Positions 4,550 through 52,701 of a stretch of DNA of 53,008 bases are shown piece by piece. The stretch is taken from NCBI GenBank assembly GCA_029883265.1, contig JAOUJM010000004.1:1-53008 (forward strand), read 5' to 3'. The notes under the pieces were generated by a model. The model saw nothing but the letters and a program-made list of their open reading frames with translations, searched no databases and was not told where the DNA came from. Numbering within the stretch: the first letter of the stretch is position 1; each line of letters starts with the position of its first letter. A program made the translations under genes and the position numbers. This DNA comes from Gammaproteobacteria bacterium (lineage in GTDB: Bacteria > Pseudomonadota > Gammaproteobacteria > S012-40).

Positions 4550-5806
4550 ATGATTCGATACGATATTGAGATACGAATTACTCGAGACTCAATCGTGGTG
4601 GATGAACTGACGCTTTACGAAAAAATTCTCAAGGTGACCCCACCTTGGTCAATAGAACAGATACAACTCAATGAACCAGACAACATTGTGCATGTGTACG
4701 TTGAATACAACAAAGAGCAAACACTTCAATGCCCTCGCTGTGATGTCGATGCATCCCGTTACGACACACGACAACGAACCTGGCGTCATCTAGACACCTG
4801 TCAATATGTGCATTGCGCGGTACCGCGTTGTCGTTGTGAGGAGCACGGTGTACTTCAAATCAGTGTACCCTGGGCCGAGAAAGGGTCAGGCTTCACGTTG
4901 CTCTTTGAATCGCAGGTCATTGATTGGTTAAAAGAAGCGAGTATCAACAGTGTGAGTCGTCGCTACGGACTCAGTTGGAATGCGATTGATGGCATTTTAA
5001 AGCGTGCGGTTCAACGAGGCTTGCAGCGACGTGAACAACAAGACACCCATCATTTAGCCGTGGATGAAGTGAGTCAACGCAAAGGCCGACGAACCATGAC
5101 CATCGTATCGAATCACCATGGTCATGTTTTAGACGTACAGGAAAATCGCACCAAAGACAGTTTACTTGATTTTTACAAAGGGTTGTCACACTTACAACGC
5201 GATGCTATTCACAGCATTAGCATGGACATGTCGGCCGCCTATATCGGCGCCACCCTCAATGCCATTCCGCATGCAAAAACAAAAATATGTTTTGACAAGT
5301 TTCATGTGATTAAAGATCTCAATGAAGCGGTCAACGCCATACGAAAATCGGAAACAAAAAAAGTATCATCGGATTGGCGCCAACCGTTGCAACGCACGCG
5401 CTTTCATTGGCTCAGAGGCCCAAGCACACTCACCGCCGATCACCAAGCGACGTTAAGGTTACTCAAAACCATTGCCACCAAAACTGCACGGGCCTGGAGC
5501 ATCAAACAATATGCGATGGGCTTATGGGTATACCGTTGTCGAGGGTGGGCACAAAAAGCATGGATACGATGGTATCACTAGGCCATTCGAAGTCGTCTCG
5601 GCCCGATCAAGGCGGTGGCTCGATCAATTAAGAAAAACTTATGGGGCATTGTGAATGCAATAGTTTTGAATCAAACCAACGCCAACGCAGAAAGCATCAA
5701 TAGTAAAATCAAAATACTCAAAGTCCGCGCAAAAGGATTTCGTAACCCAGAGCGTTTCAAAAGGGTGATATTTTTTCATCTCGGAGGACTGGATTTGAAA
5801 CCCTGA
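4550..5806 (+). pseudogene. ISL3-family transposase, interrupted by in-frame TAG
   Basis: The reading frame runs from ATG 4550 (or a GTG near codon 17, before DELTLYEKIL) to TGA 5804, about 417 codons, with TAG at 5579-5581 in the same frame. The N-terminus has a zinc-ribbon-like Cys/His cluster (CPRCDVD... CAVPRCRCEEHG), followed by a helix-turn-helix region and the DDE nuclease core. The visible acidic residues are AVDEVSQRKG, SMDMSAAY and NAESINSKIK. The last, carrying the third catalytic acid, lies after the amber codon, as does the family-typical end GFRNPERFK...FHLGGLDL. Truncation at WIRWYH should therefore abolish activity unless the codon is suppressed. No frameshift is needed to rebuild the full protein. 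Confidence 0.88.
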
Positions 5807-5807
5807 C

Positions 5808-5829
5808 CCACACGATTTGGGGAAGGCCC
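5808..5829 (-). repeat. Right terminal inverted repeat of the ISL3 element
   Basis: Its reverse complement reads GGGCCTTCCCCAAATCGTGT plus GG. It begins just after the transposase stop, and the imperfect target octamer follows at 5830-5837. Confidence 0.8.
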
Positions 5830-5837
5830 ATATTTTT

Positions 5838-6209
5838 TCAGTTTGTTGGCAGTGGTCTATTGTTAGCCTTTTATTTGAAAGAAAAGCTATTGCTACGTTT
5901 GTAATACATCTGTTTCAATCATATATAGTTTTGTTTTGGGTTTGCAGTCTGATTTATGTGCATTATAGATTTTTTCTGGATGGTGGTTCAGCAACCTTTT
6001 CAATGCCATTTTATTTATCAAATATTTCTTACTATTCCTACATTTTGATAGCCTTTGTTACAGCTAGAAAACTTGTTAGTAAAGAGTGGCGCAGCAAAGC
6101 TTACTTTTTTGACTATGTAGGAACCGGATTTCAAATAATGATCTTTCCACTATCCCTATTTCTCATTCAGCAAAGACTGCACAGCCTTGTTCAAAACACC
6201 AGAAACTGA
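5838..6209 (+). pseudogene. 3' fragment of the membrane-protein gene split by the insertion sequence
   Basis: This frame is open through the right inverted repeat and encodes about 123 residues up to TGA 6207. It has three or four hydrophobic stretches (FVIHLFQSYIVLFWVCSLIY, YSYILIAFVTA, FQIMIFPLSLFLI). Together with the 5' piece it would be a membrane protein of about 160 residues. It has no start of its own apart from a TTG inside the insertion-sequence end. The family is not recognised. Confidence 0.45.
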
Positions 6210-41254: not shown

Positions 41255-41785
41255 TTAAAAATGATAAGCCCAAAAATTGGAAAATTGCAATGCCAGGCCA
41301 CGATAGAATAAAACTTCTGAACGTAGTCCAGTGCTGAGTTGCTGGTTGATTTGATAACTAAAGCCTGAATTCAATCCATACTCACCGATCCATCGATTTT
41401 TTTTACTGGCACGACTACTCGAAAATGACCGTATAGCACCAAGTTCAACACCAGCAAAAACGGACCATTGATTAATGAGATGATCACGATAACCCAAACT
41501 TGCGATAAAATTCAGGTCTGCTGCATGCGCACTTTCCCCGGCAACCGCAAGTGTGGCGACAGGTGAATAGGCCACGCGTAACTCGGTACTTAGATTGTTA
41601 TCAAACAAAATGCCACTATTAAAACTCATTAACCAGCGAGCATGACTACTGCTGATTTCACCGGTGGAAAAAGCGGCTGTGCTGACACCGTTGTCAATGC
41701 TGACAAAATAACGATTCTGCGCCCATGAGGGTAAACTCAGAAAATAGCTAATAATCAAAACTGAAAAAATAGAAATACGTTTCAC
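41255..41785 (-). CDS. Outer-membrane beta-barrel protein
   Basis: 176 residues with signal peptide MKRISIFSVLIISYFLSLPS, then WAQ. Alternating hydrophobic strands with glycine/asparagine turns and a C-terminal aromatic strand ending WAYHF (terminal Phe) are the classical Bam recognition pattern. The closing strands (RSEVLFYRGLALQFSNFWAY) and size are compatible with an OmpA/PagL-like eight-strand barrel; catalytic His/Ser of PagL are not evident. It converges on the anti-sigma gene with 12 bases between stops. Confidence 0.72.
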   Translation of the reverse strand: MKRISIFSVLIISYFLSLPSWAQNRYFVSIDNGVSTAAFSTGEISSSHARWLMSFNSGILFDNNLSTELRVAYSPVATLAVAGESAHAADLNFIASLGYRDHLINQWSVFAGVELGAIRSFSSSRASKKNRWIGEYGLNSGFSYQINQQLSTGLRSEVLFYRGLALQFSNFWAYHF

Positions 41786-42039
41786 GAGATTCTCCTGGAA
41801 TTTAATCTGTTTAATTAAACACCAATGAGCTGGAAAACTGTTACTCGCGAATTAATCACAATGGTTTTTGGTACAAATGAAAGAATAAATACTAGTAAAA
41901 GCAACACAATACTCTATGAGTGCTTATATGAGTTATTGGTAATATTCCTCACTGGATTAGCACTCTTGTCGTCTGGATATTGCTTAACGCTGACTAGCAA
42001 ATGCTCACTGTTAAATTAATGCAGCAAGCGAATAAAAAA

Positions 42040-44886: not shown

Positions 44887-47800
44887 TTAGCGTCGTCGCC
44901 AACCACCGAATAAACTTGCAGCGGGTTTTATAATCTGCGTGGCAGGTTTTAATGCTTTGCGTTGCTCTACCAAGCTTTTGAAAACAGGTTTGGCGGGAGT
45001 GCCTAGATTCGGATCATAAGCATAACCATACATAACACCGCTATCATAACGACTGACTAGTTGCTCAATATTACTGCCCAAAGCGGCGCTTGCCCATAAC
45101 TCATCAACACTGCTTACAAAATCAAGATCGTGAACGCCCAAGGTGAAATTGAAATAATCAAAACTCACCCAATCTTGTTTACTGCTTGGCAGTGTAGGAA
45201 AAGTCCATTTGGTCGCATTGCCGGGTAATTGCACCTGCCAGGTCGTTACTCCGTTTGTGGTGTTAGGTGAAGAACCATAAAACGACATCGCTAAGCTCGT
45301 AATATCACGCGGCGATTCACCTCGATACGACCAAGTCATGCTTTTTTGGTTAGGATCATAAGGAGTGTCAGCAATAATAAACTCATAATCCGGCAAATTA
45401 AATTGCATGGTTGACGGTGGTGTACTGCCATAACGTTTAGTACTGCTCAACGTGGTGTTAGTGTTGTAGGAAGAGACCGTAAACCAATATTGATCCACAG
45501 GAATTGTTACTGGGAAATTCATTGAGGTCAATAAACCGGCGACACTGGTTTCATCGCTTATGCTACTGAGATTAGCCAAAGTGGTAATGCGATTATCCCA
45601 AAAACTAGTAACATCCAAACTTGCATAAGTGCTGCTAGCATTACTGCTCCAAGTAATCGCCGATGGGCTTGAACTTAAATCAATAGTGAGTGCGTCCACG
45701 CCCGTCAATGGCTCATTTTCGATAAAGCCATAAGCTAAAACCTCACCCGTGCTACTGCGTGCTATGGCTGCCATATTGATACTGGCTTCATCGCAAACGC
45801 TTATGCTTTGTCCCGAGCTTTGCACATATTGGTAATCAGGGAAGCTAACAAAATAACTAGTGTTTGCGGGAATATTGCTGAAGTTTAAGCTGACCGGTTT
45901 GCTTGCACAGGTTTGCATGCGCTTATCCACGCCAGTCACGTCTTGGTTGCCTGCACTCAGACTTAAATCCATAGCGGTATAAAAAACTAATTCACCCACA
46001 GGGATTTGATTGAAACTGCGAATCGCACGCTCAGTACCAAGGTTTTCACTGGTGTTTTCCCAGAAAAAAGCAATATCAGCGCGTGTACGGCCAATATCAC
46101 CAAAATCAGCAACACCTGATGCATCGGTGGTGATTTCAGTGGCAATGCTGCCATCGCTATTATACAAAACCACCATTACACCAGATACTAAAGCATCGCT
46201 GATTGGATTGTTTTTCAAGGTCAGTTTTAAAACAGTGCCGGTGACGCCACCACCCCAAACTAAATTCAGGGTTTGTGAAGTCGTACCGCCGTGGGCGTCA
46301 TCGACAGTCACCGTAAGGCTGCTTGTGCCAACCCCACTTGCTGGTGCAGTCCAGTTTACGCTGTTGCCACTGCTGGTATTTAAAGTTCCACCACCACTGC
46401 TGCTCCAACTATAGGTTAGTGCATCATTGTCGCCATCGTTTGCGGTGACACTAATGGTGACCGATTGATTATTGGCGATTAAGCCTTCCGGTATACGATC
46501 AATCGTAGAGATCTCGGGCACGCGATTTTGCAAATTAAAATTAAGCGTTAAAGGATTAGTTGCATCTGTGACGCTGACGGTTTCACTAACTAACCATGGC
46601 GCAAAAATAGTGACGGGTACATTGATTGGAACTTCAAACGAGTACATGCCTTGCGCATCAGTTGTCGTCGAAGCGCCGAGGTTGTTGGATAATTCGAAAT
46701 TGGTTTTAGGCTTGCCATCACGATCGTTGACCAAGCCTTGAATAACACCATCGAATCGGATTTGAATCGGATTTTGTAAATCAACACATTCTCCAGAATT
46801 ATCCAATGTTGAGCCTTGAGTTGTCGGCGTGTTTAAAACATCGCTGGTCACATCACCCTCGGCAGCATCGCTTATATCGTAATAAAAATTTACGCCACCG
46901 TATTCGACAAATAATTTAATTTGTTCAGGATTTGCAACATCGGTGGTGCGTTTAACGGTGACATAGGCGCGTCCATCGGTATTCGTATTGGCAGGGCGGG
47001 AGCGGCCATTATAACTTACACCCTCACCAATGAGTCGTACGTTTGCTAATGCATTACCATCCTTATCCAATACTTGTGTGCCTAGACAAGTATGCTGAGT
47101 GACGGGACGGTCCACGTTCCACCAAGAGAAATGAGTGACTTTTGCTTGCGCGAATAATATGCCGCCAACATCAACAATTAATGCATTGTCTATGTCATTT
47201 TCACCATCATCTGGGTCTGCGTCTTCACGTACCCAACTGGCGCTGGTTTCGTTATACGACCACCACTCGATAGTGTCCCCGGCTGCATATTGGGATTGCA
47301 AACTATCCGGTAGACGTACGGTCAGCATGGCGGGTTTATCTAATGTCGTGAGTTCATTTCCCTCGGCATCAACCATGGTAATTTCCGTATAAGCGACACT
47401 TTCCAGAGGCGTGTCGGGATTTTCTACGGTGGATTCAGCCGCCATAAAATCACCGGGGAAAACTGCACGACCGCTATCCGTGGTAGGATCACCCGTCGCA
47501 ATACTCACCGATACAGTTGAATTGACAAGAATACTATCAGCCGCTAAATCTAAACTCACCAGATCACCACCAGCATCGGCCGGCACAGTAAGCATTTGGG
47601 CTTGTGATAAATCTACGTTTTCTTGCATTTGATAGCGTAAAAGTTTGGCATCAACCGCCACAGTCTGACCAATATTAACAGGGATGCGGCGTTGATAAGT
47701 GCCATAGCCATCTTTTTCATAAGTAATAACGATTTCGTCATTGGTTTGCAAAGGCACTTGCAAACGGTAACTGCCATTCACATCACTTAATGTGGATTGG

Positions 47801-48009
47801 TTCGCTGCTGAGACTTTAACTTTTTCCAATGGATTATCCGCGCTCACATTTCCAGAAATATACACATACTGCTGAGCGATTTTATTCGATCCATCATCAT
47901 TTTTGTTGCGACTGTCCTTGCTGCTGCAAGAAGCTAGCGTCAGCAAACTCATACTAAAGCCAAGTAGCAGTAGGGAAAAAACAAACTGCAATAGTAAATT
48001 TCTATTCAT
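44887..48009 (-). CDS. Large surface lipoprotein with carboxypeptidase-like and cadherin/PKD-like domains
   Basis: 1040 residues. Lipobox LASC (Cys28) after a hydrophobic signal, then a charged linker. Domains in order: a carboxypeptidase regulatory-like domain (~45-125, YISGNVSADNPLEKVKVSAA); a ZU5/Ig-like region (~130-300); a second regulatory-like unit (~305-390); a third (~420-490, VIQGLVNDRDGKPKTNFELS); a cadherin-like repeat (~495-580, DNDALTYSWSSSGGGTLNTS); a fourth regulatory-like unit (~590-660); then a ~370-residue strand-rich C-terminus. It ends in the basic FGGWRRR. Probably displayed on the outer membrane as an adhesin or scaffold. Divergent from the second ECF sigma module. Confidence 0.85.
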   Translation of the reverse strand: MNRNLLLQFVFSLLLLGFSMSLLTLASCSSKDSRNKNDDGSNKIAQQYVYISGNVSADNPLEKVKVSAANQSTLSDVNGSYRLQVPLQTNDEIVITYEKDGYGTYQRRIPVNIGQTVAVDAKLLRYQMQENVDLSQAQMLTVPADAGGDLVSLDLAADSILVNSTVSVSIATGDPTTDSGRAVFPGDFMAAESTVENPDTPLESVAYTEITMVDAEGNELTTLDKPAMLTVRLPDSLQSQYAAGDTIEWWSYNETSASWVREDADPDDGENDIDNALIVDVGGILFAQAKVTHFSWWNVDRPVTQHTCLGTQVLDKDGNALANVRLIGEGVSYNGRSRPANTNTDGRAYVTVKRTTDVANPEQIKLFVEYGGVNFYYDISDAAEGDVTSDVLNTPTTQGSTLDNSGECVDLQNPIQIRFDGVIQGLVNDRDGKPKTNFELSNNLGASTTTDAQGMYSFEVPINVPVTIFAPWLVSETVSVTDATNPLTLNFNLQNRVPEISTIDRIPEGLIANNQSVTISVTANDGDNDALTYSWSSSGGGTLNTSSGNSVNWTAPASGVGTSSLTVTVDDAHGGTTSQTLNLVWGGGVTGTVLKLTLKNNPISDALVSGVMVVLYNSDGSIATEITTDASGVADFGDIGRTRADIAFFWENTSENLGTERAIRSFNQIPVGELVFYTAMDLSLSAGNQDVTGVDKRMQTCASKPVSLNFSNIPANTSYFVSFPDYQYVQSSGQSISVCDEASINMAAIARSSTGEVLAYGFIENEPLTGVDALTIDLSSSPSAITWSSNASSTYASLDVTSFWDNRITTLANLSSISDETSVAGLLTSMNFPVTIPVDQYWFTVSSYNTNTTLSSTKRYGSTPPSTMQFNLPDYEFIIADTPYDPNQKSMTWSYRGESPRDITSLAMSFYGSSPNTTNGVTTWQVQLPGNATKWTFPTLPSSKQDWVSFDYFNFTLGVHDLDFVSSVDELWASAALGSNIEQLVSRYDSGVMYGYAYDPNLGTPAKPVFKSLVEQRKALKPATQIIKPAASLFGGWRRR

Positions 48010-48294
48010 AGCTACACCTTTATTTAAATTAACCTAATGCCGTGCTGTTAATGCTTGTTATAATGTTTCTCAAGTCTGCGATTGCGATTTTTGTGCCGCA
48101 GAATTGGTGAAAAAATTATAAAATTCATGCAGTTATTGCTGGTTGATTAGTGATCAATGAGGGTTAATCACTTAAATAGACTAGGTAGTTAAGGCGACAG
48201 AAAAATTTCTGGGCAGCGTATACTGATACTAAAAGCGGCAATCTGTGAAATTTAAAGTAACACCCTCAGGTATTCATGGTGTTTAACTAGACAA
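48010..48294. promoter_or_regulatory. Divergent control region of the large lipoprotein and the caspase operon
   Basis: 285 bases between two starts. AACACC (48259-48264) and GGTGTT (48278-48283) form an inverted repeat 11 bases before the sigma start codon, where a Shine-Dalgarno is lacking. It may be a regulatory dyad or mRNA hairpin. A GTAACACC string is ECF -35-like but is too close to the start codon to be convincing. Confidence 0.3.
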
Positions 48295-48807
48295 ATGGAA
48301 AATCAACAACAAAAACCGATTAATGTAGAAGATTGCTATCGACGCTATGGACCGATGGTTTTACGTCGATGTCGGCAACTTCTTGGCGATGAATCATCAG
48401 CGGTGGATGCCATGCAAGACGTATTTGTTAAATTGATTCGCTATGAGGACCGGCTCACGGGTGATGCGCTTTCCTCATTACTTTACCGAATGGCGACTAA
48501 TGTTTGCTTGAATAAATTGCGTAGTGAGCGTCGACATCCAAAGGCTGATATGGATGAGCAGCAATCGTTATTAGAGCAAATTGCCGATAGCGAGGATTTG
48601 GAAGATAAAACCATTGCTACTCATATACTAGAACGCCTTTTTCGGCGACAACCTGAATCCACAAAAGTGATGGCCGTATTGCATTATCATGACGGCTTAA
48701 CTTTGGAGGAAGTGGCTGAAGCTGTGGGCATGTCCGTATCAGGGGTGCGTAAACGTCTACGTGGCTTGCGCGAGCGCCTGAAACTATTGCAAGGAGAGCT
48801 TGCATGA
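48295..48807 (+). CDS. ECF-type RNA polymerase sigma factor (second module)
   Basis: 170 residues. Region 2: YGPMVLRRCRQLLGDESSAV followed by DAMQDVFVKLIRYEDRL and SSLLYRMATNVCLNKLRSER. Region 4: VMAVLHYHDGLTLEEVAEAV followed by GMSVSGVRKRLRGLRERL. It lacks a C-terminal extension. Its stop overlaps the next start (ATGA), so the sigma, its probable anti-sigma and the caspase protein are made together. The regulon is unknown; autoregulation is likely. Confidence 0.92.
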   Translation: MENQQQKPINVEDCYRRYGPMVLRRCRQLLGDESSAVDAMQDVFVKLIRYEDRLTGDALSSLLYRMATNVCLNKLRSERRHPKADMDEQQSLLEQIADSEDLEDKTIATHILERLFRRQPESTKVMAVLHYHDGLTLEEVAEAVGMSVSGVRKRLRGLRERLKLLQGELA

Positions 48808-49625
48808 GTCAGCAACTACGTAGAATTAGTGATTTGGAACTGGAACAGTTTCTGTTAGAGGAATTGCCTGTCGGTAAAATGAATGCCATTCATGATCGTC
48901 TCCGTGAGGATAGGGAGTTACAAGAGCGTTTAGCCGCTATTAAATTGAGTAACGAGCAAATTCTCGAGCGATATCCAGTCAATGACGTGTGCCAGGATAT
49001 TCGTTTAAAACATAACGAATGGCAGGACAAACATTTTCGGCAACAACGTCGTCAGTCAAAAACGATTCGTTGGCTTGCTTACGGTTTACCCGTAGTGCTT
49101 GTAGCTGTGATTGGCGTCAATTTGCAAAACGATGATTTAAGTGTTGTGACAAATTTGCCGACAACCTTGTCTTTGCCCGGTAATGGTATCCGTACCAAAG
49201 GTTTAAACCCTAGTCTGGAGATAATGCAAATCACACAACATCAACAGCGTCGCTTGCAATCCGGTGATGAATTACAAAGTGGTGATGTGATTCAAATGAG
49301 TTATCAGGGTGTCGGTCGTCGTTATGGCGTCATTTTATCGGTGGATGGCAACCGCAATGTGACCTTACATTATCCCAATGAAGTGGGTGAATCAATTGAA
49401 TTGAAAACGGGTAAAACTCCACTGGGATTTTCTTATGAGTTGGATAACGCACCCGCTTTTGAACATTTTGTTTTTCTCACATCGGATCAAATGATTGATG
49501 TTGAGCAAGTAATTCAAGCCCTGCAGAAAAATGCGGCAAGCATTACTGCGACCCGTGCCAATGATTTGGACGTAGATAGTCATATTGAGCAATATTGGTT
49601 TTTTCTTAAAAAATCGAGTTCCTAA
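48804..49625 (+). CDS. Membrane anti-sigma-like protein with DUF4384-like domain
   Basis: 273 residues. N-terminal cytosolic part: ISDLELEQFLLEELPVGKMN AIHDRL, resembling the start of anti-sigma factors (leucine/acid pattern, no zinc Cys). One membrane helix follows (about 88-107, TIRWLAYGLPVVLVAVIGVN). The periplasmic domain contains LQSGDVIQMSYQGVGRRYGV followed by ILSVDGNRNVTLHYPNEVGE, like DUF4384, a domain that recurs next to caspase-family genes. It overlaps the sigma gene by 4 bases and the caspase gene by 1. It probably sequesters the sigma factor until a periplasmic signal arrives. Confidence 0.75.
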   Translation: MSQQLRRISDLELEQFLLEELPVGKMNAIHDRLREDRELQERLAAIKLSNEQILERYPVNDVCQDIRLKHNEWQDKHFRQQRRQSKTIRWLAYGLPVVLVAVIGVNLQNDDLSVVTNLPTTLSLPGNGIRTKGLNPSLEIMQITQHQQRRLQSGDELQSGDVIQMSYQGVGRRYGVILSVDGNRNVTLHYPNEVGESIELKTGKTPLGFSYELDNAPAFEHFVFLTSDQMIDVEQVIQALQKNAASITATRANDLDVDSHIEQYWFFLKKSSS

Positions 49626-52015
49626 TGGTTGCCCGAGTTATTATATTATTTTTTTGCAGCCTCGGTGTTCTATGGGCGCAAGAGCAAGACCTGAGTTTAA
49701 TGAAAATTCAGCGTTATGCACTTATTGTTGGCGCGAATGACGGGGGTGCCGGGCGAACCGTATTGCAATATGCACAAAGTGACGCTCGCGCAGTTGCTCA
49801 GGTATTAAAAAATTTAGGTGGTTTGGAAACTCGAAACCAAATTTTATTAAGTGAACCTAGTGCACAGGGAATCTTGGCTCAACTCGATCAGCTCAAACGC
49901 AAACTAGCCTACCAAGATGGCAATTCCATGTTGCGCAAAGAATTATTTTTCTACTATTCAGGTCATAGCGATGAAAACGGGTTGTTATTACAAGGTGAGC
50001 ATTTAACCTATAAACAACTCAAAGACGCTTTGAATAGTGTAAACGCGGACGTACGCGTCGCGGTTCTGGACTCATGCGCTTCCGGTGCGTTTACCCGGCT
50101 AAAAGGTGGTAAAAAGCGCCAAGCATTTTTAATGGATGAATCATCAAAAGTGAAAGGTTATGCGTTTTTAACGTCAAGCTCGGCAGATGAAGCGGCGCAG
50201 GAATCCGATGCGATTGGTGGTTCTTATTTTACACATTATTTTGTTTCGGCATTGCGTGGCGCAGCGGATGTCAGTAATGATAAAAAAGTAACGCTCAACG
50301 AAGCGTATCAATATGCATTTCATGAAACCCTAGCACGTACAGAAAATAGTTTAAGTGGACCGCAGCACGCGGCTTATGACTTCCAGTTATCGGGTGCGGG
50401 TGAGTTGGTACTGACAGATTTACGCCGAACCAATGCGACCCTGGTTTTGCCAAAAGAAATGGATGGCAAAGTGTTTATCCGGGATTTAGCAGGACGCTTG
50501 GTGGTGGAAATGCGAAAACAACCGGCGCGGGTGGTGAGTCTAGGTTTGGAACCGAAAAAATACGTGGTCAGCGTCGATAGTGATACAGGTTTAATGCGCA
50601 AACGCGTGCAAATTTCCAATGGTAGTGTTGTCTTTTTGGATATGGCATCTTTTGAAACAATCGTGAAAGAGCAAACCGTGGCGCGTGGTGATATTGAAGC
50701 TAAGCCAGTCGTCGCTTGGCCACATAAAACCGTGGACTCCCGAATGTCAGTAACGCCAGAATTAACCTGGGACCGAGGTGTACAAGGCGATGGATTGGAA
50801 CAGATTGGTACGCATATTAATTTATTCATGGGAAAAGTCTATCGTGTACGCGGTATCGATGCAGGTTTGTTTGTCAATCGAGTGGAACAAGACATGATTG
50901 GTGGCCAAGGGGTTGGTCTGATCAACCATGTTCAAGGCAATGTGGACGGTGGTCAAGGCGCGGGCATTGGAAACGTAGTTGGTGGTGACGTACAAGGCGG
51001 CCAGGGCGCCGGTGTATTTAATGTCGTGTTTGGGAATTTGCGCGGCGGCCAAGGCGCAGGTGTGTTTAATTTGGTTCGTGGTGATGCTCATGCGGGTCAG
51101 GCCGCGGGTGTGTTCAATGTGGTTGAGGGCAGTATGCTAGGCGGTCAAGCCGCAGGGCAATTTAACATTGTGCGCGGTAACTTAACCGGTGGGCAATCGG
51201 CAGGTTTATTTAACATTGTTGAGCACAATGTTCGTGGTGCACAAGTGAGTGGCGTGTTCAATTTGGCCAAAGGAAAAATTGTAGGTGCACAAGTCGCGGG
51301 TTTGTTTAATATGAGTTTTGGTGAAATTAAAGGTGCGCAAGTGAGTGGCTTGTTTAATATCGCTCGTGATGAAGTTGCAGGTGCACAAGTCGCTGGTTTT
51401 TTTAATAGCTCCCAGTATCGTCACAAAGGAACCCAAGTTGGATTAGTGAATTATGCTGCCGATGTTAAAGGCACTCAAGTGGGTTTATTGAATATCGCCG
51501 ATAAGATGACTGGAATGCCTGTCGGCATTATCAATATTATTGGTAATGGTCGAACCAATGTGGATTTTACATATGATAATCGTGATTTCGCTAGTATTGA
51601 TTTGAAATCGGGTACAAGACATTTCTACAGCGTATTGCAATGGTCTCATGGAGGTGGAGAGAAAACTCAACTAGGTTACGGCATGGGATTGCATTTGTTT
51701 GATCAAGATTATTTTCGCTTGGATTTTGACGTGCTGGGTAGTGCTCAGTGGAATTTTGATCATATCACATGTGCGGAATGCGTGGTGCGTAATCCCAAGT
51801 TAAGTGCGCGTTTAGGTGTTGCGCTACCTTTAACAAAACGTTTTGCATTAAACACTGTTTTTGCTTTAAATGCCCAGTATCGTAATCATCCTGAATTGGA
51901 AAACACGCCTCACTACGTAAAAACACATACGGTCAAAGTCACGGATAATAATAATACCGAACGGACCTACGCCATTAAACTCTGGCCCAGTGTGAATATT
52001 GGTTTTCAATTTTAG
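49625..52015 (+). CDS. Exported caspase-family protease fused to 16-residue repeats and a C-terminal barrel-like domain
   Basis: 796 residues. Signal peptide MVARVIILFFCSLGVLWAQE. The caspase-fold (peptidase C14) domain (~28-265) has the catalytic dyad His114 (FFYYSGHSDENGLLL) and Cys151 (AVLDSCASGAFTRL). It also has an acid-rich substrate region SSADEAAQESDAIGGSYFTH. Residues ~265-345 are an Ig-like linker (FIRDLAGRLVVEMRKQPARV). From residue 426 come eleven 16-residue repeats of type GGQGAGVFNVVxGNxx, then three 14-residue units GTQVGLxNxADxxx. They probably form a beta-solenoid. The last ~150 residues, ending VNIGFQF with terminal Phe, look like an outer-membrane barrel. It is translationally coupled to a DUF4384 anti-sigma-like protein and an ECF sigma factor. 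Confidence 0.9.
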   Translation: MVARVIILFFCSLGVLWAQEQDLSLMKIQRYALIVGANDGGAGRTVLQYAQSDARAVAQVLKNLGGLETRNQILLSEPSAQGILAQLDQLKRKLAYQDGNSMLRKELFFYYSGHSDENGLLLQGEHLTYKQLKDALNSVNADVRVAVLDSCASGAFTRLKGGKKRQAFLMDESSKVKGYAFLTSSSADEAAQESDAIGGSYFTHYFVSALRGAADVSNDKKVTLNEAYQYAFHETLARTENSLSGPQHAAYDFQLSGAGELVLTDLRRTNATLVLPKEMDGKVFIRDLAGRLVVEMRKQPARVVSLGLEPKKYVVSVDSDTGLMRKRVQISNGSVVFLDMASFETIVKEQTVARGDIEAKPVVAWPHKTVDSRMSVTPELTWDRGVQGDGLEQIGTHINLFMGKVYRVRGIDAGLFVNRVEQDMIGGQGVGLINHVQGNVDGGQGAGIGNVVGGDVQGGQGAGVFNVVFGNLRGGQGAGVFNLVRGDAHAGQAAGVFNVVEGSMLGGQAAGQFNIVRGNLTGGQSAGLFNIVEHNVRGAQVSGVFNLAKGKIVGAQVAGLFNMSFGEIKGAQVSGLFNIARDEVAGAQVAGFFNSSQYRHKGTQVGLVNYAADVKGTQVGLLNIADKMTGMPVGIINIIGNGRTNVDFTYDNRDFASIDLKSGTRHFYSVLQWSHGGGEKTQLGYGMGLHLFDQDYFRLDFDVLGSAQWNFDHITCAECVVRNPKLSARLGVALPLTKRFALNTVFALNAQYRNHPELENTPHYVKTHTVKVTDNNNTERTYAIKLWPSVNIGFQF
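50900..51511 (+). repeat. Tandem 48-bp coding repeats in the caspase gene
   Basis: Eleven consecutive 48-bp units (50900-51427) encode a 16-residue repeat, followed by two 42-bp units (to 51511) and a degenerate third. Unit consensus: G(G/A)Q(G/A/V)(A/S)GxFN(V/I)(V/A)xGxxx. DNA copies have diverged, so this is an old amplification. The protein repeat resembles the Gly/Asn surface repeats seen in LA_2272-type proteins. Confidence 0.88.
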
Positions 52016-52026
52016 CGGGCTAGCTT

Positions 52027-52701
52027 GTGAATGATGTAGCTAAACTTGATGCAGGTGAATTCCGTCAATGGCTATACCAGCATATTGATGCCGAACGCAA
52101 TGCTGGTTCAACGCCAGTGGTTTGTGGTGATTGTCTTGCTTGTTGTCGCGCCTCTTATTTTATTCATGTGGCGGCTAATGAAAAACAAGCGCTTGCCTCC
52201 ATTCCGAAACCATTGTTGTTTACAGCACCAGGCATGGCGCCGGGGCATTATTTGATGGGATATGATCAACAAGGTCGCTGCCCAATGCTAAAGCAGCAGC
52301 AGTGCACAATTTATTCGAAACGACCTTTAACCTGTCGTCAATACGATTGCCGCATTTTTACTGCAACGGGTATTAATCCTAAAGAAGTTGAGAAAAAAGA
52401 AATTGCGCAACAAGTACAGCGTTGGCAATTTACTTATGCCGATGCTGCTGCGCAGGCCCTGCATCAATCCGTGAAACGTGCAGCAAGCTTTCTGCAAGAC
52501 CATGGCGAACAATTTCCAAAACAATTCATGCCGGGTAATAGCACTCAACTTGCCGCATTGGCCATAAACGTGCATGAGTTATTCGTCTCAGAGTCTGCAT
52601 CAAATCAGGTTGATTCCATGATCCAACAAATTATCGAATCAATGCAGCAGACTTCTTTGACGAAAAAAATAAAAAATACTGAAGCTGCCGGAGGCCGATA
52701 A
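52027..52701 (+). CDS. YkgJ-family cysteine-cluster protein
   Basis: 224 residues from GTG 52027. The cysteine cluster is VVCGDCLACCRASYFIHVAA, followed by GRCPMLKQQQCTIYSKRPLT and CRQYDCRIF, typical of YkgJ zinc- or Fe-S-binding proteins. The C-terminus (~150-224) is helical and poorly conserved, ending in KKIKNTEAAGGR. Biochemical role unknown. It follows the caspase gene by 11 bases and may be the last gene of that operon or simply read through. Confidence 0.88.
   Translation: MNDVAKLDAGEFRQWLYQHIDAERNAGSTPVVCGDCLACCRASYFIHVAANEKQALASIPKPLLFTAPGMAPGHYLMGYDQQGRCPMLKQQQCTIYSKRPLTCRQYDCRIFTATGINPKEVEKKEIAQQVQRWQFTYADAAAQALHQSVKRAASFLQDHGEQFPKQFMPGNSTQLAALAINVHELFVSESASNQVDSMIQQIIESMQQTSLTKKIKNTEAAGGR

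Follow-up and report, generated by a model that had tools for sequence, protein, structure and literature searches.

A three-gene operon encoding an extracytoplasmic function (ECF) sigma factor, a predicted membrane anti-sigma factor and an exported caspase-fold protease joined to a beta-solenoid and an outer-membrane barrel was found near one end of the window, the 53,008-nucleotide stretch of gammaproteobacterial contig JAOUJM010000004.1 analysed here. The genes follow one another in the order sigma, anti-sigma, caspase protein (hereafter the trio), adjacent genes sharing 4 and 1 bases, exactly as claimed in an initial annotation of this DNA, whose observations are confirmed and whose interpretation is partly supported. 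The reading that we favour, and hold to be probable, is that of an autoregulated trans-envelope switch in which the metacaspase-like protease acts as the site-1 protease of the ECF anti-sigma factor. More broadly, there is in our judgement about an even chance that the trio represents a widespread type of envelope signalling not described before, in which a metacaspase tethered to the outer membrane serves as sensor and as site-1 protease alike, freed by two self-cuts and activating a TonB/ExbBD-centred regulon by a third, matching cut. Three observations have been added to the initial annotation, namely three basic-Gly sites, a GTRAC-N17-GTGTT promoter before the sigma gene, and the same promoter before ExbB, TonB and receptor genes.

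The basic-Gly sites are found in the anti-sigma factor at the end of its juxtamembrane linker (Lys132-Gly133), in the caspase loop after the catalytic Cys (Lys160-Gly161), and in the linker joining the caspase part to the solenoid and barrel (Arg354-Gly355). In the set under 60% identity used for all site counts, anti-sigma position 132 is basic in 47 of 48 proteins (46 Lys, 1 Arg) and Gly133 is present in as many; the lone protein without a basic residue there is encoded at L076, an orphan locus of sigma and anti-sigma without caspase, where the anti-sigma is cut off before the beta domain and the K-G site is absent. Lys160 and Gly161 are each kept in 41/41 caspase proteins, and position 354 is basic in 42/42 (36 Arg, 6 Lys) and followed by Gly355 in 42/42, most flanking positions being little conserved. 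Both caspase sites lie within segments of pLDDT < 50, and the anti-sigma site lies exactly at the end of such a segment, with its K-G directly preceding the first modelled strand of the beta domain. Among 27 DUF4384 proteins outside trios, K/R-G occurs in the upstream 21-residue stretch in three only, and directly before the first strand in none.

The closest folds of the caspase domain are metacaspases (VIA-align Z 15.3, rmsd 3.3 over 202 residues against metacaspase-4, 6w8r), and the trio caspase keeps Asp53 and Asp149, both of which align with Asp residues of metacaspase-4. Asp95 and Asp211 of TbMCA2 have been assigned to its potential S1 pocket (PMC4357240), and Asp53 and Asp149 are their likely counterparts. 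Metacaspases take Arg and Lys in P1, a preference found across the group (PMC4357240, PMC6426788); given this preference and the kept acidic residues, the three basic-Gly pairs are read as candidate cut sites. An invariant short motif in disorder, with Lys and Arg interchangeable at two of the sites, is the mark that would be expected of a basic-P1 protease. Moreover, the caspase processing site is located about 14 residues after strand beta-4 (PMC4357240), and Lys160 stands near the equivalent place. The proposal that the protease may cleave the anti-sigma factor, originally a guess, has thus gained real support from the invariant site.

The domain composition of the three products largely bears out what had been read from motifs. 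With an ECF sigma-70 factor taken as one having regions 2 and 4 only, the first product matches TIGR02937 at 81 bits (cut-off 42.9) and Pfam Sigma70_r2 at 51 bits, above cut-off, with region 4 slightly under its cut-off. The second is predicted to be a membrane anti-sigma factor from its architecture and from its gene adjoining the sigma gene: the model (pLDDT 84.9) comprises a helical N-domain with helices 10-56 and 59-106, a single transmembrane helix, a disordered linker at 109-131 and a DUF4384-like beta domain. HxxxCxxC anti-sigma motifs occur in four distant homologues, one of which matches zf-HC2 at E 0.005, under the zf-HC2 cut-off. The DUF4384 profile (PF14326) matches 12/24 anti-sigma homologues (best E 4e-6); as the window protein scores 15.8 bits against a Pfam cut-off of 27, and the best related protein 26 bits, the earlier wording 'DUF4384-like' is the right one. 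Naming this domain as a known ligand-binding fold was also considered and dropped, the Foldseek and VIA-align matches being to a generic beta-sandwich and too weak for function; the best VIA-align match, at Z 8.2, is the Ig-like AGS-C domain of a Pycsar cyclase (9ard).

In the third product, Peptidase_C14 (PF00656) scores 45 bits, above cut-off, with the dyad at His114 and Cys151 as annotated, and a score of 63 bits against a cut-off of 140 places the protein outside the EACC1-associated caspase family (NF047832). Between the caspase domain and the solenoid the model shows a small beta domain (about 272-337), then a disordered linker (349-364), then a few strands. The repeat count of the initial annotation also holds: there are eleven units of 16 residues, the first starting at residue 426 and the last at 586, and three of 14 residues, starting at 602, 616 and 630, with a period-16 self-identity of 0.54 compared with 0.21 for the highest of 1000 shuffles, and LA_2272_repeat (NF047436) scores 44 bits against an NCBIfam cut-off of 25 and also matches 18/25 homologues. 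The repeats are modelled as an ordered, confident beta-solenoid (pLDDT about 97), whose best match, the antifreeze beta-helix 3p4g (VIA-align Z 21.2), shows solenoid shape, neither ancestry nor calcium binding. The C-terminus is modelled as the proposed barrel, 8-stranded and with a terminal Phe, and matches transmembrane barrels at VIA-align Z 14-17, including a designed barrel (6x9z, Z 16.6) and the OprF N-domain (4rlc, Z 15.2). By canonical topology rules, a C-terminal 8-stranded barrel would leave protease and solenoid in the periplasm; hence, of the two locations first offered for the caspase, periplasmic or surface, the former is predicted and the latter is not favoured, and surface location was dropped as first choice. 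A role in anti-phage defence was likewise set aside, PADLOC having yielded only a weak generic 'caspase' match to the protease (E 4e-4).

The genes of the trio are closely co-inherited. In a scan of GTDB genome contigs, homologues were found at 24 loci, with 31-49% identity in their best segments, and close relatives bring the total to 29 distinct loci; the three genes stand in the same order in 28/29, usually with overlaps of 1-4 bases, and no full caspase homologue lacks the His/Cys dyad. None of the three outcomes named in the initial annotation as refuting it was thus seen, the repeats being ordered and followed by a modelled barrel, the trio recurring and the dyad being conserved. Labels of these loci span at least six phyla (Gammaproteobacteria, Deltaproteobacteria/Myxococcota, Bdellovibrionales, Aminicenantes, Spirochaetales, Fibrobacteria/Chitinispirillia and others), and every labelled group has two membranes, as would follow from a barrel protein that demands an outer membrane. 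Across 37 loci under 60% identity, tree distances of sigma, anti-sigma and caspase correlate at 0.78-0.81, compared with permutation maxima of 0.38-0.59. The arrangement had been called unusual, and it is undescribed in the literature searched, yet it is widespread, the anti-sigma family being present in 149/193 Myxococcota genomes; it is sparse (5/149) in the phylum of L013, the locus departing from the rule, and in the window's own phylum no full-length anti-sigma match was found in the other 397 genomes sampled. As the system is common in Myxococcota, a tractable laboratory organism should be available in which to test it.

Several loci differ in detail. At L161 the order is altered, with a caspase gene upstream of sigma and anti-sigma, and L071, L072, L077 and L078 hold more distant sigma/anti-sigma/caspase trios whose anti-sigma carries a zinc-type HxxxCxxC motif. 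At L125 two further genes lie beside a full trio, one for a repeat-barrel protein that lacks the caspase and one for a barrel alone (289-1581 and 5515-6147); a divergent promoter copy precedes the second. L019 is a trio in a metagenome-assembled genome (MAG) record titled Klebsiella pneumoniae, a title that is probably a mislabel.

The promoter pattern GTRAC-N17-GTGTT was found before the sigma gene at 73 of the 89 sigma loci, some of which represent one site more than once, compared with 0.26 loci expected from shuffles. Spacers of 15-20 were permitted and all matches have 17, and near matches are seen by eye at several loci without a perfect promoter (for example L017, L019, L025, L026 and L127). 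The earlier suggestion that the operon is under its own ECF switch is therefore strongly supported. In a regulon scan of 17 genomes by sequence patterns only, a stricter form gave 84 sites compared with 6 for the reversed pattern; a spacing control, in which the spacer was lengthened by one base, gave 10 sites compared with 5 reversed and recovered none of the known sigma promoters. Leaving aside sites before a sigma or anti-sigma gene, 64 distinct sites remain, of which tblastn places 9 before ExbB-type and 8 before TonB-dependent-receptor-type genes. In representatives of several phyla, Pfam matches bear out the presence of ExbB, TonB_C and TonB-dependent receptor domains downstream of the promoter, which points to an outer-membrane-related regulon. 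In the window's own genome (L190) the promoter stands before a receptor-ExbB-ExbD-TonB operon, in a family relative (L189) the same receptor operon is divergent from the trio, and in two further lineages (L123, L268) ExbB genes are. The promoter also precedes genes for small barrel proteins, for a repeat-barrel protein (L263), and for S41 peptidases and beta-lactamase-fold enzymes, among others. Because the promoter precedes the sigma factor's own gene, we infer that sigma binds it directly and acts at GTRAC-N17-GTGTT promoters, its own included. At L190 (contig C65) two TonB-dependent-receptor-like genes lie in tandem; the promoter precedes the second of them, after which come ExbB, ExbD and TonB. 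At L191, in the same genome, a lipoprotein operon including LpoB, the peptidoglycan-synthase activator, has a promoter copy about 190 bases to its 5' side.

In Myxococcus-type genomes, probably of Myxococcaceae, the trio is split, with sigma, anti-sigma and a bare barrel at one locus and an anti-sigma homologue with a full caspase-barrel protein, and no sigma gene, at the other; both loci are present in 12/12 such genomes checked. Thirteen distinct promoter copies stand before anti-sigma/caspase loci without a sigma gene, and caspase and sigma seem to remain in one circuit though chromosomally apart. The RRG/RKG before the barrel-only proteins of these genomes was considered as a retained release site and not used, being by eye part of the barrel's own first strand.

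In the switch that we favour, the anti-sigma factor would, judging from its architecture, keep sigma at the inner membrane, and the exported caspase protein would be anchored by its barrel with solenoid and protease facing the periplasm. A signal at the outer membrane, perhaps the assembly state of the barrel or a ligand of the solenoid or barrel, would trigger the protease; failure of barrel assembly is an attractive trigger because one polypeptide carries both protease and barrel. The protease would then cut itself after Lys160, for activation, and after Arg354, for release from the barrel, and once freed would reach the inner membrane and cut the anti-sigma factor after Lys132, between the transmembrane helix and the beta domain, whereupon general proteases would complete its breakdown. 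Freed sigma would fire its own operon in positive feedback, together with the ExbB/ExbD/TonB genes, TonB-dependent receptors and other envelope proteins.

Several points weigh against this switch. Its cleavage, localisation and expression steps are all predicted from sequence and models, the disorder and folds being AlphaFold2 predictions from alignments of 24-25 rows, a different Lys/Arg protease could use the basic-Gly sites, and the sensor ligand is purely putative. At L013 the caspase occurs without a sigma gene nearby; a complete trio (L066) and a sigma gene paired with an anti-sigma gene (L070) lie elsewhere in that genome. In the split loci, the anti-sigma beside the bare barrel keeps its K-G although the adjoining caspase has been lost, so that the second-locus caspase must act in trans if the cleavage model is right. 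It is also conceivable, if rather unlikely, that the caspase is an output and not the trigger, the anti-sigma factor sensing through its own DUF4384-like domain and sigma raising an outer-membrane-tethered, self-releasing protease for other envelope substrates. The operon is itself under a sigma-type promoter, hence the caspase is a regulon member, and R354-G355 could be self-release without a signalling role; however, this would leave unexplained both the close co-inheritance of the genes and the invariant anti-sigma K-G after a disordered linker, missing in other DUF4384 proteins.

Were the basic-Gly pairs structural, as domain-boundary or binding motifs joining anti-sigma and caspase, signalling could proceed by contact without cleavage, as in FecA-FecR. 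That K-G immediately precedes the beta domain's first strand would suit such a role, and the regulon holds TonB-dependent receptors and ExbBD/TonB, like Fec-type systems; yet Arg and Lys swap at two sites while their neighbours drift, and the catalytic dyad is invariant across all homologues, and we consider this explanation improbable. Very improbable is an autotransporter-like surface protease, with caspase and solenoid as the passenger through the C-terminal barrel and Arg354-Gly as a shedding site. In general terms, the succession of signal peptide, protease, beta-solenoid and C-terminal barrel with terminal Phe resembles the type Va order, but type Va autotransporters have a 12-stranded translocator barrel, whereas the 8 strands modelled here are narrower than known translocator barrels and match OprF/OmpA-type barrels, Pfam gives no match to an autotransporter barrel family, and a protease on the surface would be unable to meet the anti-sigma factor.

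By the features tested, the trio belongs to neither the RseA/DegS, the Fec nor the Craspase systems. With RpoE-RseA-DegS-RseP of E. coli it shares an ECF sigma factor, a one-helix anti-sigma factor, near-membrane periplasmic site-1 cleavage (proposed here) and positive autoregulation (PMC8103513); there, however, the site-1 protease DegS is an inner-membrane PDZ serine protease sensing outer-membrane protein (OMP) C-termini, whereas the candidate here is a caspase that shares its polypeptide with an outer-membrane barrel and is encoded in the same operon, and of the sequential site-1/site-2 cleavage of RseA only a candidate site-1 motif is seen. FecI-FecR-FecA likewise combines an ECF sigma factor, a membrane anti-sigma factor, an outer-membrane barrel protein and a TonB-linked regulon, but the outer-membrane partner there is a TonB-dependent receptor that carries a plug and a signalling domain, whereas in the trio this place is taken by the caspase-solenoid-barrel protein, in which no Plug or TonB_dep_Rec Pfam match was found, and receptors are targets. 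In the type III-E CRISPR system Csx29/Csx30/CASP-sigma (Craspase), a caspase-fold protease cuts an ECF sigma inhibitor (PMC10028731), as proposed here, but that system is cytoplasmic, RNA-triggered and of the CHAT family, without export, membrane helix or barrel. Caspase-like protease genes also adjoin ECF sigma genes in ECF54 neighbourhoods with CHAT domains (PMC8999054), without an anti-sigma factor, whereas here a membrane anti-sigma gene lies in between. SigX-CfrX-OprF-CmpX of P. aeruginosa resembles the trio in tying an ECF sigma factor to an outer-membrane protein, the trio barrel being OprF-like (PMC8999054), but has no protease, and CfrX is soluble. Metacaspases and orthocaspases (C14B) share the fold, the His/Cys dyad and the acidic S1 residues (PMC4357240, PMC6426788), whereas the trio caspase is exported and fused to solenoid and barrel; its putative processing site lies near the catalytic Cys, as in caspases, while that of type II metacaspases lies about 84 residues further. 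The LA_2272/VC2662 repeat surface proteins have repeat and barrel families in common with the trio protein, which adds the caspase, the NCBIfam models spanning the repeat or barrel part only. A literature search on DUF4384, caspase and ECF, of partial coverage, returned no paper on the trio system, and ECF classification tables may list the neighbourhood.

To our knowledge, few physiological substrates of bacterial caspase homologues have been established, and they are often guessed to lie in cell death. If the proposed switch is true, bacterial caspases would gain a role outside cell death, in controlling transcription for the outer membrane. Genome evidence alone would then name a protease, its probable self-cleavage sites, its probable substrate with the exact bond, and a promoter reporting its activity; in addition, DUF4384-like anti-sigma proteins and LA_2272-type repeat barrels are each given a suggested function.

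Table 1. Features of the operon and of a putative regulon member, in window coordinates.
Feature	Position	Strand	Basis
ECF sigma factor, 170 aa	48295..48807	+	TIGR02937, Pfam Sigma70_r2
Membrane anti-sigma factor, 273 aa	48804..49625	+	ORF; structure model; distant homologues with HxxxCxxC motifs
Exported caspase/solenoid/barrel protein, 796 aa	49625..52015	+	ORF; Pfam C14, NCBIfam LA_2272 repeat; model
Conserved ECF-type promoter, GTAAC (-35), 17-base spacer, GTGTT (-10)	48257..48283	+	11 bases 5' of sigma start
Anti-sigma transmembrane helix, residues about 87-106	49062..49121	+	hydrophobic stretch closing model helix 59-106
Putative site-1 cleavage motif R130-T-K132-G133, end of disordered juxtamembrane linker of anti-sigma	49191..49202	+	conservation, predicted disorder 109-131
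Putative signal peptide, about residues 1-19	49625..49681	+	sequence: basic start, hydrophobic core, LWAQ end; model helix 2-18
Metacaspase-like caspase domain, residues 28-268, His114/Cys151	49706..50428	+	VIA-align, Pfam
Putative self-activation site R158-L-K160-G161, loop after catalytic Cys	50096..50107	+	conservation, predicted disorder 153-187
Putative release site R354-G355, caspase part to solenoid/barrel	50684..50689	+	conservation, predicted disorder 349-364
Beta-solenoid, eleven 16-residue and three 14-residue LA_2272-type units	50900..51553	+	NCBIfam, model, VIA-align, periodicity
Predicted 8-stranded outer-membrane beta-barrel, terminal Phe, residues about 645-796	51557..52012	+	VIA-align, model strands
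Second promoter copy	41818..41844	-	5' of small outer-membrane-like protein gene
Putative regulon member, 176-aa exported barrel-like protein	41255..41785	-	no Pfam match; own promoter copy

Two neighbouring genes lie outside the trio. A divergent gene for a 1040-aa lipoprotein-like product (44887-48009, minus strand) is located 5' of the promoter, and an ORF downstream of the trio (52027-52701) has cysteines clustered close to its start and probably encodes a YkgJ-like metal-cluster protein.

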